The notes under the pieces were generated by a model. That model was not told where the DNA came from and ran no database searches. It worked only from the letters and a program-made list of their open reading frames with translations. Shown one piece after another: positions 58,812 through 63,996 of a stretch of DNA of 64,000 nt. A program made the translations under genes and the position numbers. Each line of letters opens with the position of its first letter. The stretch's first letter is position 1. This stretch comes from Monosiga brevicollis MX1 (Eukaryota > Opisthokonta > Choanoflagellata > Craspedida > Salpingoecidae): NCBI RefSeq assembly GCF_000002865.3, contig NW_001865039.1, positions 2,672,537-2,736,536 on the forward strand, in the 5' to 3' direction.

Positions 58812-61620
58812 TTACTCGGTCAGCTCCTTGGGCAAGGGCTCGCCAGCAACAAGAGCCTTCTCTGCGGCAATCAGGACCTGAACGCCATCGATCATGGTCT
58901 GCACCAGCTCCACCTCAGACTTGCCAAGACGCTCCTTGTTGGAGAGATCATACACGCCACCATCGCTTTCGCTGTGCTCGCCGTGGATGCCACGGGGCTG
59001 AAGGCGCAGCTTCTCGCACCACTTTTTAAAGTCGGGGTGTGCACCCACCTTGGGCAGCTTCACGTGCACTGAAGCGCGCATGCCCGTACCGCAGTTGGTG
59101 GGGCAGCTGTGAATGAAACCCAAGTGCTCGTTGTGAGCAAACTCGAAACCCGCGGCCTTGATCTTCTCCTCAACCGCAGAGATACCGCGCGACAGGCGCT
59201 CAAAGATCTGCAAACACAACACAATTCAGAGAGTAGAAACGATGCAGTGAGACGAGCTCCAGACAGGGTGAAAAAGAGTCATTTCACTTCGCCAAGCGCA
59301 GTGTGAAGACAACGACACACCTCCTTGGCATCCGAGCCCTTCTGCATGGAGATGATGCGCATCTGATCCTCCTCGTTCACCCAGACCAAGAAGGTCTTCT
59401 CGTTGTTGTGGAAGATACCACGGCTCTCAGGCCAGTCACGGTTGGCACCAGCAGACTGCAGGAAGCGATCGCCCTTCTTGAAGAGAAAGTGATCGGCCAC
59501 AAGCTGCTTGCGGTCGGCCTCGGACATGGAACCCAGCGAGTAGTAGGTACCGGCCAGGTCGCCCTCGAGCTGGTTCAGCGCCTCGACCACAAGTTCCTCG
59601 ACCTTGCGACGGTTGGCGCGCGAGATTCCGGGAGACAGACCCAGACCCTTGATGTTGCGACCCACGCGAATGCGAGTGGAGATGACGTAGTCACCCTCCG
59701 GATCAGGCACACCGCGAAGCTTGCTGGCATCCATGTCGGAGACATGACGGTCAGTAGGCCTAAACGCCGAAGAATCAAGGAGCAAGAACAAGACAAGGTG
59801 AACACCGCGTGAGCAACACGTTGCGCTTCTTTTCTTTTCTTGTTTTGTCAAACAAACCAAAAATCAAAAAAAAAAAACCATCAAGGCATCAAGACAGGAA
59901 TAGCAATCAGCGAGCAAGTAGGAGGAAAGCAGTCCCTGCCAGCCAAAAAAAAAAAAAAAAAGGAGAGCGAAGCACATGCGAGCTTACTTGTAGCCGTTGT
60001 GGTAATCCTCGATGACGGCGTCGAACACGGGTGCAAAGACAGTGTACGACTCCTATGAAAGCCACCAGAAACGTTTAGAGGTGACGCCTCGCCGGAGGTT
60101 GATGTGATTCTGTTTGTCGTGCGCTTGAGCTTTAGGAGCCGGTGATGGGGGGACAGGTGGCATACCTCGTCACCAGCATACAGACCAACACCAGAGTCCT
60201 GGTTGTCCACGCCGCTCTGAATGGCGTGCTGCAGAGTAAAGCCAGAGGGCGTCACGCTGTTGATGAAAACAGACATGGCCGGCATTGCAAGCCAATACAA
60301 TGTGACAACATGAGGTGATGGACCGGCGCTGCAGAGCTCGCGGCATGAGCGATAGATGTGCAAGCACGGTCGTCGACACGTCGACACGAACCGGGTCTCG
60401 CACTGGAGGTAGGCGTCCTTGGTCAGATGCTTCTTGAGAAGGGAGTGGGAGGACTCGTCAAACTTGGGATAGCCGGCCAGGCCAGCCGCAGGACCAGCGA
60501 GCTGGGAGCGGCTCTGTTCACTGTGGAAGTGGCGTTCCATGGCCTCCAGTCGAGCAACCAAGTCCTCCAAGGCAATGCGCTTGGCATCGTTGTTGGCAGC
60601 CGCAGCAGCGTTGGTCGCGGATGAGGTCGCCTCCTCGGCGGGCTGAACCTAATCGAGGCCGTCACGGGCATGAGATGCTCTCGGGAGGGTGGAAGGATCA
60701 AGGCGGCGCAAAAAAAAAAAATTTGACGGCTGTCGCCGTGGCAATGCATACTCACAGCTGAAGCGGGTTTGGCTTCATCAACAACGACAAAGGAGGTTTC
60801 AACCTCGGCGGGGGCAGCTGCGGCAGGGGCGACGGGACCCGGGCCAGCAATCGTGGCACCCGTGCCATCAAATACCTATGAAGGTCGATGGTGGTGTCGG
60901 TTGGACACAGTAGACAAGAGTCGGAATGAACAGGAGGAGAATATTCAAGTATCGCTCCTCATTGAGCCACAAAGTGAAATCGTCAAGCAAGACCCAATTC
61001 TACCCACCTGAGCAAACTGGACGCCATCCTGATTCCAGGTGAGGGTGATGGAGCCATCCTTGTTCTCGGCAATATCGAGTTGATCGTAGGAAGGCTCAAA
61101 GTCGGCCGCAGCAGTGCCAACGTTTGAAGCGCTGGCACTTGAGGGTGCAGAGGCAGTGGCAACCTCGGGGGCTTCGGGGGCCTCCATGGGCAGCACGTTG
61201 TTGTTGACGAGGAAGCCATCTGACACCACCTATACCAGAGTTTGCCCTCGATGAGTGTTCTCTTTCTTTCGTTTCTTGGTGTGTGGGTCTGTGTGTGTCT
61301 GTGTGTGTCTGTGTCTATGCTTGTGCCTGTATGTGTCTGTATGTGCGCGCGCACACAGGAAAACGACAAGTCGCATGGCCTCAAGAAACCTTGGACAAGG
61401 CAAAAATGATTGCGAGGTGTGTGAGGTGTGCCCAGCAAGGACGTACCGCGGCAGCGGCACCGGCGCCAAAAATACCACAGGCAACCTTCAAGGCGGTGCT
61501 GGCCGTATCGGTATCACCACCACGGGTTTGGTAGGCCATGGAGCGGATTGCCGTCATGGTAGCGGGGGAGCGCAGCACCTTGGAGGTGACGGTGCGCGAA
61601 GCCACAAGTCGTGCTGCCAT
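58812..61620 (-). CDS. CKMT: Creatine kinase with mitochondrial-type leader and long N-terminal extension
   Basis: Phosphagen kinase. The start ATG 61620 opens a basic presequence ([20 protein letters not shown]) followed by RGGD and a short hydrophobic run (exon 61447-61620). The next exons are [20 protein letters not shown] with a Ser/Ala/Glu linker (about 61015-61232), an Ala/Pro-rich piece (about 60760-60875) and a coiled piece [19 protein letters not shown]. The core then follows: [90 protein letters not shown] and [20 protein letters not shown] with the reactive Cys; the C-terminus is at 58812. The NEED box and both Arg-rich sites are present; features such as WPESRGI and ISMQKG point to creatine rather than arginine, but this is not proven. 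The extension between leader and core is much longer than in animal CKMT. Confidence 0.92.
61447..61620 (-). other. Creatine kinase leader exon (paralogous to 62830-63000)
   Basis: 58 codons from ATG to a GCG|GTACG donor in phase 0. It shares VLRSP, RGGDxDxAS and xALKV with the first exon of the neighbouring 79-aa gene, and the same intron position. The next exon shares the pattern G-x-x-V-N-x-N-x-L-P. Confidence 0.85.
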
Positions 61621-62528
61621 TGCGTCGGATCAAATTGCTTCTGTCAAAAGAGCAAGCAACGAGTCAACCTGATGAGGGTATGTGTGCATGTGTTCAGGCA
61701 GAAAGAAATCTGGGAAGGCAGGGCTTTGGGATGGATCACGGCGTTGACTTGGATAGGGCAAGTCCCCAGGACCGCCCCCGGCGCGACAAAGAGCGGAGCC
61801 AAGGCAAGCAACAAAGTGCATGTCAAAGTTTACCACGAATGTGACCTCCCTGGCTCTCAACCTCCTTAACATTGCTCCCCCCCTCCCCCCCCCCCCCCCC
61901 CTTTTACTCTCCCCTCTCCTCCCCTCTCCTCCCTCACACACGCTGACTGCCATTTGAGCACCAGACCCACTGGCATCTTGGTTACCCAGGGAACAAGGCG
62001 TGACACCAGTGATGGGATGTTGATGCCTACGTACCTCTGGTTTGCTTTGGAGATGGAAACATGGAAAGTACCTGATCCCCTCTCACCGGTTGTTACATGC
62101 ACGTGGGAACGAAGAACGATTGTCATCATTTTTTGGTTTGTGGTTTTGTCAGACTTTCTGTGTGTGTGGGTGGCCGGGGCGCCGGTGGAGTTGGCTGGGC
62201 TGGGTGTGGAGGTGCGCATCCACACACGCAGTGCCAATGGTTGCCAAAAGATGGACGCTACCAAATTGACCATTGCTTGCTCTAGTGAAGCCCAGCGGTA
62301 CAGGCTTCGGGCTTGATAATAATAATCAGCAGCAGCAGCAGCAGCAAGTGACAATTGATTGAAATGGTAGGGGGTAACATGCAGATTTGTCTGAAGCGTG
62401 GTGGTATGGAAAGAAGCTATGGCAAAGCCGAAGCCACGTTTGCCTTGGAGCAGCAACAGCGCCGAATTTGTGCCCATGCCCGTGTGCTACAAAAATTACT
62501 GGGCGCGATAAGAATTCGATACTATGGC
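61621..62528. promoter_or_regulatory. Region between creatine kinase start and the 79-aa gene
   Basis: About 900 bp: a C-rich run (about 61876-61902), a GCA repeat (62329-62346) and no supported exon. It should hold the creatine kinase promoter and the 3' end of the small gene, or a single long intron if the two leaders are alternative first exons. Confidence 0.4.
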
Positions 62529-63000
62529 TTACTCGGGCCGCTCGTCGTCGCGCAATGGCAACATGTTGGTGTTGACGATGCCACCCAAATAGGGATACTG
62601 TTGAGATCATTCATGGACATTCACAGCGCCAAGCATCAAGCACAGTACAAACGTGTGTGAGCCAAGACCTGTGCCATCACATTCTCATGCTGCCGAACAA
62701 ACGGCTGCGGGAGCGATGATGGCCGGCACAGCCCAGGCCCATCATCAACCCATGCCATCCCACAAGTTTGTTTTCTCGTCCTTCTCCCTGGTCCCTCGTG
62801 TCAACAGCGAGCTTGGGGGCAGCGCGTACCGCTGCAACAGCAATTGTCGTAACCACGGCGACAGAAACCTTGAGCGCCATGCTAGCTTCGTCCGAGTCCC
62901 CACCACGGAGATGGTAGCCCAGCTGGCGGCGGCCCACAGTGGGGATTGGAGAGCGCAGCACCCGAGCGGCGACCGTGCGCGTTGAGGTCAAAAGGGCCAT
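62529..63000 (-). CDS. Small mitochondrial-type membrane protein, paralogue of the creatine kinase leader
   Basis: Two exons, 62830-63000 (57 codons) and 62529-62597 (22 codons plus TAA), give a complete 79-residue protein. The intron 62598-62829 is phase 0 with a GTACG donor and CAACAG acceptor. The protein has a basic, acid-free start (MALLTSTRTVAARVLRSPIP), then RGGDSDEASMALKV, a hydrophobic segment (VSVAVVTTIAVAA), and the tail GGIVNTNMLPLRDDERPE. Layout suggests a mitochondrial presequence plus one membrane span. I do not recognise the family. It may be a respiratory-chain accessory subunit (inference only), or exon 62830-63000 may also serve as an alternative first exon of the creatine kinase, since both leader exons end in the same phase. 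Confidence 0.6.
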
Positions 63001-63702
63001 GGCTGCCTAACAAGAGGAAGAACCTTCAACGTCTCAAGAACGAAAAAAAGCCAAAAAGGTTTGTGCCCGTGTGTGCCTGTGAACCACCAAGGTGTAAAAT
63101 GCATAAGATGCACCGTCTTCCAAAGAAGCCTCGATGACTGTACTGGCGCTCAAGCCATGGCCCACGTCAATTCTCACCTGCGATCCGAACGCATTGCATG
63201 TGCCATTCACCCCCTAGCCGAACCCCTCACCCAATGCCCCGAACGCCCCTGCATCTCGTTGCACACCTCTTGCACCCCTGTCCAGCTAGATAAGCCAGCA
63301 CAACCTTAGCAGTGGAAGCGTGCAGCAAGATTCGCCTCTTCTTACACCTACACCTTCCTCCCCCGTCAAAACCTCATACGGAGGGAGGTCACAGTCCCCT
63401 CTTCTCGAATTCTGTGCCGCCCTACGAACCAGCCAATTGCTGACAAATCAGCTGAAATGTCAGCACAAGCGCCCCCGAGCGGAGACACTTTTTCACCTGT
63501 TCATCGAGACAACTTCGGTCACGTACCAAGTGTCATCCCTTATGGTTTGACCGTTGAGATTCGTTCTTCCGTTACAATTTCCGTTGCATTTTCCTTCTCC
63601 TCAACGGTGAGTCCCCACCCTTCCTCATTCCTCGCATGCGCTGCCATTTATTGATGCGTGAACCATCTCACCTTGCCTTTCTTTTCTTTGCGTGCAGCCA
63701 TT
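63001..63702. promoter_or_regulatory. Divergent region small mitochondrial protein / zinc-finger protein
   Basis: 700 bp. A likely 5'-UTR intron of the zinc-finger gene occupies about 63607-63698. TGTCAGC/GCTGACA words occur near 63439-63465. No coding exon is certain. Confidence 0.35.
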
Positions 63703-63996
63703 ATGGCGACTCCTTCTCCGGTGTCTTGTGCAATCTGCAACATGCTTGTCTCGGATTCCAATGAGCAACGCCATGTTCAAACGCACCATTCCACTCCACC
63801 CGATCTCCGCCGCCCTTCCGAGTGCTTTCCTTCTCTGAACTGGATTGACTGTCCTGCGCCAGGATGTGTGTGCTCAATGCGCAAGGGCGATCCGCTGATG
63901 GCGCACTACATTGAAAGCCATCCTGTACATGCCAACGAAAATTTGACCACCTTTTTTCCCAGCGCTGTTTGCTGCGACTGCGGCCACTGTCCTTAA
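63703..63996 (+). CDS. Small Cys/His zinc-finger protein, possibly incomplete
   Basis: ATG 63703 follows a likely 3' splice site (gtgcag at about 63693-63698), so a 5'-UTR intron is probable. The donor may be at about 63607 (GTGAGT). The frame runs 97 codons to TAA at 63994-63996. Two Cys2His2-like units are visible: CAIC...HVQTHH, and CPAPGC...LMAHYIESH, then a Cys-rich end CCDCGHC. The stop may be bypassed by a splice beyond the window edge. Function is unknown; nucleic-acid binding is only a family-level guess. Confidence 0.5.
   Translation: MATPSPVSCAICNMLVSDSNEQRHVQTHHSTPPDLRRPSECFPSLNWIDCPAPGCVCSMRKGDPLMAHYIESHPVHANENLTTFFPSAVCCDCGHCP

Follow-up and report, generated by a model that had tools for sequence, protein, structure and literature searches.

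How did a phosphagen kinase gene of the choanoflagellate Monosiga brevicollis come to begin with a leader that resembles the product of the small gene beside it, and what might this leader do for the kinase? The first-pass annotation of the window, the 64,000-nucleotide stretch of DNA analysed here, had proposed a creatine kinase that gained a mitochondrial address and a membrane span by tandem duplication of a neighbour's leader exons or, alternatively, one gene served by two alternative first exons. We followed up both proposals within one 39.5-Mb M. brevicollis genome of 57 contigs. In this genome, two exon stretches of the UNC18 gene match PDB chain 2xhe_A, the UNC18 protein of M. brevicollis, with full identity. 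The two gene models were built from splice consensus and family match, and all transcripts discussed are predicted.

Results

Gene models

The small gene is predicted to encode 79 aa in two exons, and the adjoining kinase gene, in the same order and on the same strand, 587 aa in eight (Table 1). All introns in the two models are GT..AG and keep the reading frame. The first exons end in nearly the same phase-0 donor, GCG/GTACGT in the kinase and GCG/GTACGC in the small gene (the slash marks the splice site), which bears out the common GCG/GTACG donor noted earlier, and the acceptor of small-gene exon 2 reads AACAG/T. The second kinase exon, previously placed at 61232, starts at 61229 in our model. 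The small-gene stop and the kinase start are separated by 908 bases. Between the two genes neither AATAAA nor ATTAAA occurs, and AATAAA is likewise absent after the kinase gene.

Pyrimidine-rich, acceptor-like tracts ending in AG lie 6 and 20 bases upstream of the start codons of the small gene and the kinase (63007-63030 and 61641-61660, respectively), and the sequence allows for an intron in the 5' untranslated region of each gene. A plus-strand frame at 63703-63996 (MATPSPVSCAICNML...) has weak, sub-threshold matches to C2H2 zinc fingers. Since it starts about 700 bases from the small-gene start, a bidirectional promoter region may serve both.

Table 1. Predicted features of the small gene and the kinase gene, in window positions.
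Feature	Position	Strand	Description
Small gene exon 1	62830..63000	-	presequence-like N-terminus, RGGDxDxASxALKV, hydrophobic run
Small gene intron 1	62598..62829	-	232 b, phase 0; no alignment with kinase intron 1
Small gene exon 2	62529..62597	-	YPYLGGIVNTNMLPLRDDERPE, then stop
Kinase exon 1	61447..61620	-	leader, homologous to small gene exon 1
Kinase intron 1	61230..61446	-	217 b, phase 0; located in the alignment column of the small-gene intron
Kinase exon 2	61008..61229	-	codons 1-22 homologous to the entire small gene exon 2; then Ala/Ser/Pro-rich linker
Kinase exon 3	60756..60875	-	linker, without credible relative
Kinase exon 4	60392..60648	-	end of linker, short coil-like segment (also in C51 paralogue), start of kinase N-domain
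Kinase exon 5	60166..60256	-	arginine-kinase-type substrate loop DSGVGLY, residues 278-284
Kinase exon 6	59988..60052	-	
Kinase exon 7	59321..59759	-	catalytic domain, NEED motif
Kinase exon 8	58812..59207	-	catalytic domain, CPTN and GEHSES loop, stop

The two leaders are homologous over their full length

A global alignment of the small protein with the kinase leader pairs identical residues at 36 of 79 positions and needs a single 1-residue gap. Both N-termini are rich in Arg, Ala and Ser, a composition that would favour a convergent, generic presequence resemblance without homology. Against shuffled sequences, the alignment reaches a z of 27.5 over the whole length; the presequence by itself scores 6.5, the remainder of the alignment 22.6 and exon 2 alone 8.7. 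In each of these four comparisons, none of 5000 shuffles attained the observed score. A search of the whole genome with either leader (E up to 10) listed three matches, the two exons of the gene itself and exon 1 of the other gene, the latter with E 3.1e-8 and 5.5e-8 in the two directions. As the residues downstream of the presequence suffice for a significant score and the cross match falls just in the adjacent gene among the matches listed, the resemblance is not one of generic presequence composition. Together with the shared intron column, this refutes the convergent explanation, to which we assign a vanishingly small probability; the shared leader proposed from the first reading is real.

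The intron interrupts both leaders in the same alignment column and in phase 0, which indicates copying at the level of genomic DNA. The two proteins agree at 11 of 14 positions in the motif before the membrane-span-like run, RGGDxDxASxALKV, and at 6 of 10 in the motif after it, GxxVNxNxLP; the run between these conserved flanks is kept mainly as hydrophobicity. The leaders had been described as diverging after the second motif. The motif is present as described, and homology continues past it, covering the small protein from its first to its last residue and ending in ERPE / EAPE. Exon 2 of the other gene is absent from the matches listed in both genome searches, and homology of this exon is established by the pairwise alignments. 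Among the matches listed there is no credible further leader copy in the genome, just the two neighbouring loci; the search scores the best candidates only, so that weak relatives could escape it. A match of the kinase leader to an unrelated frame (L027:717-544, E 0.009, 29% identity) came from a local search, without composition correction, of the 10 kb surrounding the paralogue; it is absent from the genome-wide matches listed and was taken as chance. Order and strand, the intron column, homology over the full length of the small protein and the restriction to two loci among the matches listed support the earlier proposal of a tandem duplication of leader exons.

The same data bear on the proposal that transcripts can also run from small-gene exon 1 into kinase exon 2, so that the kinase would be made in two forms that differ in their leader. 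The phase-0 donors would permit this splice, joining small-gene exon 1 to kinase exons 2-8 leaves an open frame of 586 codons, and a precedent is described in rice and maize, where one presequence serves two proteins through alternative splicing (PMC2631504). Against it, the small gene possesses an intact second exon with its own stop codon, this exon is homologous to kinase exon 2, the small-gene frame looks selected (see below), and no sequence feature requires a longer splice across the 908 bases between the genes. We consider such alternative first exons improbable.

The duplication is old and the small gene probably selected

No noncoding DNA of the two genes is similar in register. Similarity does not exceed chance between the introns (p 0.20), between the upstream regions (p 0.32) or between the DNA past the small-gene stop and the remaining part of kinase exon 2 (p 0.11). 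In fourfold-degenerate boxes, third positions agree in 12 of 23 cases, compared with 43% expected from codon usage. The NG86 method gives dN 0.56 and dS 1.02 for the leader (5-95% range of dS 0.70-1.52, 300 bootstraps), dS being probably underestimated, and the 5-95% range of omega is 0.32-0.82 in the same number of bootstraps. With introns and flanks that no longer align and synonymous sites near saturation, the leader duplication must be old. The similarity of the proteins has outlasted that of the surrounding DNA and is therefore probably selected. In simulated neutral copies, start and frame were kept in 520/4000, 193/4000 and 120/4000 cases at 0.3, 0.5 and 0.6 substitutions per site, respectively; the simulation includes substitutions alone, and indels would lower frame survival. 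With indels disregarded, an open frame could thus survive by chance without this being very improbable. By this weak test, selection has probably maintained the small gene as protein-coding.

The 79-aa protein has no relative in Pfam, in NCBIfam, which is built for bacteria and archaea, or among PDB chains (E up to 10). A profile of the small protein and the kinase leader matched one PDB chain, a serine hydroxymethyltransferase, at E 0.14, which we attribute to chance. Identification of the small protein with EMRE, the regulator of the mitochondrial calcium uniporter, was rejected, as a better EMRE-like frame exists elsewhere in the genome. This frame (G000:C54:1553595-1553792, minus strand, L028) ends in ...SFVEDNDIWHYEPDDD and weakly matches the Pfam family DDDD, with E 6.8e-4 when the genome was searched and, below the cut-off, E 0.0025 for a 48-residue piece. 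It is a candidate EMRE of this choanoflagellate.

A paralogue without the leader

A second kinase, on contig C51, is identical to the window kinase at 282 of 355 core positions (79%). Its N-terminus, MVSAAIRSALKVGAGVAAGAVAFGATATTEDKSG, is short and hydrophobic with a peak of 1.44, and the paralogue shows no match to the window-kinase leader among the genome matches listed. When this N-terminus was aligned to the kinase leader, 207 of 3000 shuffles and 1104 of 5000 class-wise shuffles reached the observed score, and homology was not found; with the small protein the counts were 1702 of 3000 and 2813 of 5000, no similarity beyond chance. Both kinases share a coil-like stretch just before the core (score reached by 4/5000 shuffles, for a stretch picked after viewing the alignment).

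In the window kinase, the leader is followed by an Ala/Ser/Pro-rich linker of about 115 residues, which contains another hydrophobic window, a weak one (1.12 at residue 146). No credible relative of this linker was found in the genome, the sole outside match listed having E 0.19. Leader and linker are also unmatched among the 49 PDB chains listed, where the best stretches begin at residue 218 or later. Pfam matches of the linker to PF14362 (E 0.021) and PF01213 (E 0.14) and of leader residues 3-69 to PF14272 (E 0.031; 14.8 bits against a cut-off of 27.3) are below cut-off and were taken as chance.

Since the C51 paralogue lacks the leader yet shares the coil, leader and linker look as if they had been placed before an older coil and core, and the leader was probably added to the window kinase. 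The hydrophobic N-terminus of the paralogue might be what is left of a leader that both kinases once had. Since the paralogue, too, may be bound to a membrane, the mitochondrial address need not be an innovation of the window kinase. From the earlier claim that the kinase gained its mitochondrial address from its neighbour, we retain the addition of the leader; the neighbour is just a possible donor, and a membrane or mitochondrial location may be older.

For the direction of copying, we lean towards a duplicated small gene that fused to a coil-bearing kinase. In the reverse course, part of the kinase 5' end would have been copied later, and the copy would have gained a stop codon and become the small gene, which now encodes a leader-only protein, functional or not. 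The tandem layout and the end-to-end homology suit this second course equally well, and the hydrophobic N-terminus of the C51 paralogue may mean that leaders are old in this pair of kinases. Against it, the remainder of kinase exon 2 is untraceable past the small-gene stop, although any trace would have decayed by now; a tblastn search with the linker gave just weak matches beyond the homologous stretch. The open frame, the splice sites and an omega below 1 speak against a dead copy. We regard the partial copy as possible, but doubtful.

The kinase is of the arginine kinase type

The kinase matches PF02807 and PF00217, the N-terminal and C-terminal ATP:guanido phosphotransferase domains, with 103.8 and 250.8 bits (cut-offs 25.7 and 22.4). 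The name creatine kinase given in the first reading has to be replaced. Counted by eye, the GVDN-AGDEE loop has 8 residues in the window kinase, as in both domains of 4rf6 and in 3ju5, which are named arginine kinases, and 12 residues in the three creatine kinase chains used for comparison (u6284, u17832 and u3639). The second specificity loop reads GIHGEHSES in the window kinase and GTGGVDTAAV in creatine kinase. The spider arginine kinase is described as holding arginine by the loop residues Asp62, Ser63, Gly64, Val65, Gly66 and Tyr68, and Glu225 and Cys271 are named as well (PMC5598448). In alignments judged by eye, DSGVGLY corresponds to Asp62-Ser63-Gly64-Val65-Gly66 and Tyr68, while NEED 438-441 and CPTN 491-494 correspond to Glu225 and Cys271. 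The latter two motifs do not discriminate between the two enzymes, as the creatine kinase chains have NEED and CPSN. With the short DSGVGLY loop and the GEHSES loop, arginine kinase is the better name for the window kinase.

M. brevicollis is listed with arginine kinase in PMC3679164 and PMC6429109. Four more phosphagen kinase domains, alike by eye, lie in long open frames on contigs C27, C56 (116839-118659) and C29 (L002, L003, L004, L005); an 815-codon open frame is reported for both C56 domains, and one C29 domain is followed by a run of PEADPA repeats. Conejo et al. 2008 reportedly described three arginine kinase genes in M. brevicollis, two of them CK-like, and presumably the window kinase and the C51 paralogue are these two CK-like genes.

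Predicted targeting

Both leaders contain 5 basic and 0 acidic residues in their first 30, and the hydrophobic peak over 19 residues (KD19) is 1.74 in the kinase leader and 1.85 in the small protein. The helical moment of the presequence is modest (0.31 and 0.43). Both leaders have the bipartite pattern of a basic, acid-free presequence followed by a hydrophobic segment. With leaders of this kind, the protein is imported, the presequence is removed, the span is arrested in the inner membrane and the C-terminus comes to lie in the intermembrane space.

Discussion

The reading that we consider the more probable, from sequence and prediction, is an old tandem duplication that gave rise to an inner-membrane-tethered arginine kinase facing the intermembrane space, with the same module also existing as a stand-alone protein. 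An old local duplication of DNA, as shown by the homology and the shared intron, left two neighbours with one 79-residue module. The stand-alone protein would consist of a basic presequence, RGGDxDxASxALKV, one membrane span and the tail GxxVNxNxLPxxxxExPE; in the kinase, the module would form the N-terminus and be joined to the arginine kinase by the Ala/Ser/Pro-rich linker. The kinase precursor would be imported and lose its presequence, and the span would anchor it in the inner membrane with the kinase domain in the intermembrane space. There, the enzyme might turn ATP leaving the carrier into phosphoarginine, as animal mitochondrial creatine kinase does with creatine. Since the flanks of the span are conserved, and the span itself mostly in its hydrophobic character, the module probably does more than serve as an address. 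The flanks may have a binding role common to both proteins, through which the module might dock the small protein and the kinase on one inner-membrane partner.

Animal mitochondrial creatine kinase is also a phosphagen kinase with a leader and works in the intermembrane space, as predicted for the M. brevicollis kinase, which differs by its arginine-kinase-type loops and its predicted membrane anchor. Mitochondrial arginine kinase is on record in Limulus and Manduca. In plants, the rice rps11-1 presequence was seemingly copied from atp2 and others (Kadowaki 1996, cited in PMC2631504). The likeness lies in a nuclear gene whose mitochondrial leader seems to come from another gene. In M. brevicollis, by contrast, the unit copied amounts to a whole small protein with a predicted span and a conserved tail, the partner is adjacent, and the cargo is a phosphagen kinase and not a gene moved from the organelle. 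In Trypanosoma brucei, AK3 is described as an arginine kinase with a calflagin-like N-terminal tail (PMC4517888), that is, as a paralogue relocated by an N-terminal extension that resembles another protein family. There the tail is flagellar and proposed to be acylated, and the relation to calflagin is given as a proposed similarity without a tandem neighbour (PMC4517888). Among open-licence PMC papers, we found no title or abstract opening that describes the leader of the window kinase. Copied presequences and a borrowed-looking arginine kinase tail are already known; what differs in the two predicted genes is that the N-terminus of a kinase is formed by a small membrane-protein-like unit in its entirety, which also persists as the gene next door.

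A more specific role for the 79-aa protein would be that of a subunit or adaptor of, for example, an ATP-exporting or ATP-making inner-membrane complex. The kinase with its built-in copy would then plug into the same site and receive ATP directly. We offer this as a speculation that is unlikely to be correct in this form. If true, a duplicated subunit would connect a phosphagen kinase to the source of its ATP, an arrangement that arose in a close unicellular relative of animals and separately from animal mitochondrial creatine kinase. If the flanks bind a common partner, a docking module would have been identified. The locus would show phosphagen kinase relocation in the closest unicellular relatives of animals, with the donor or the copy still adjacent.
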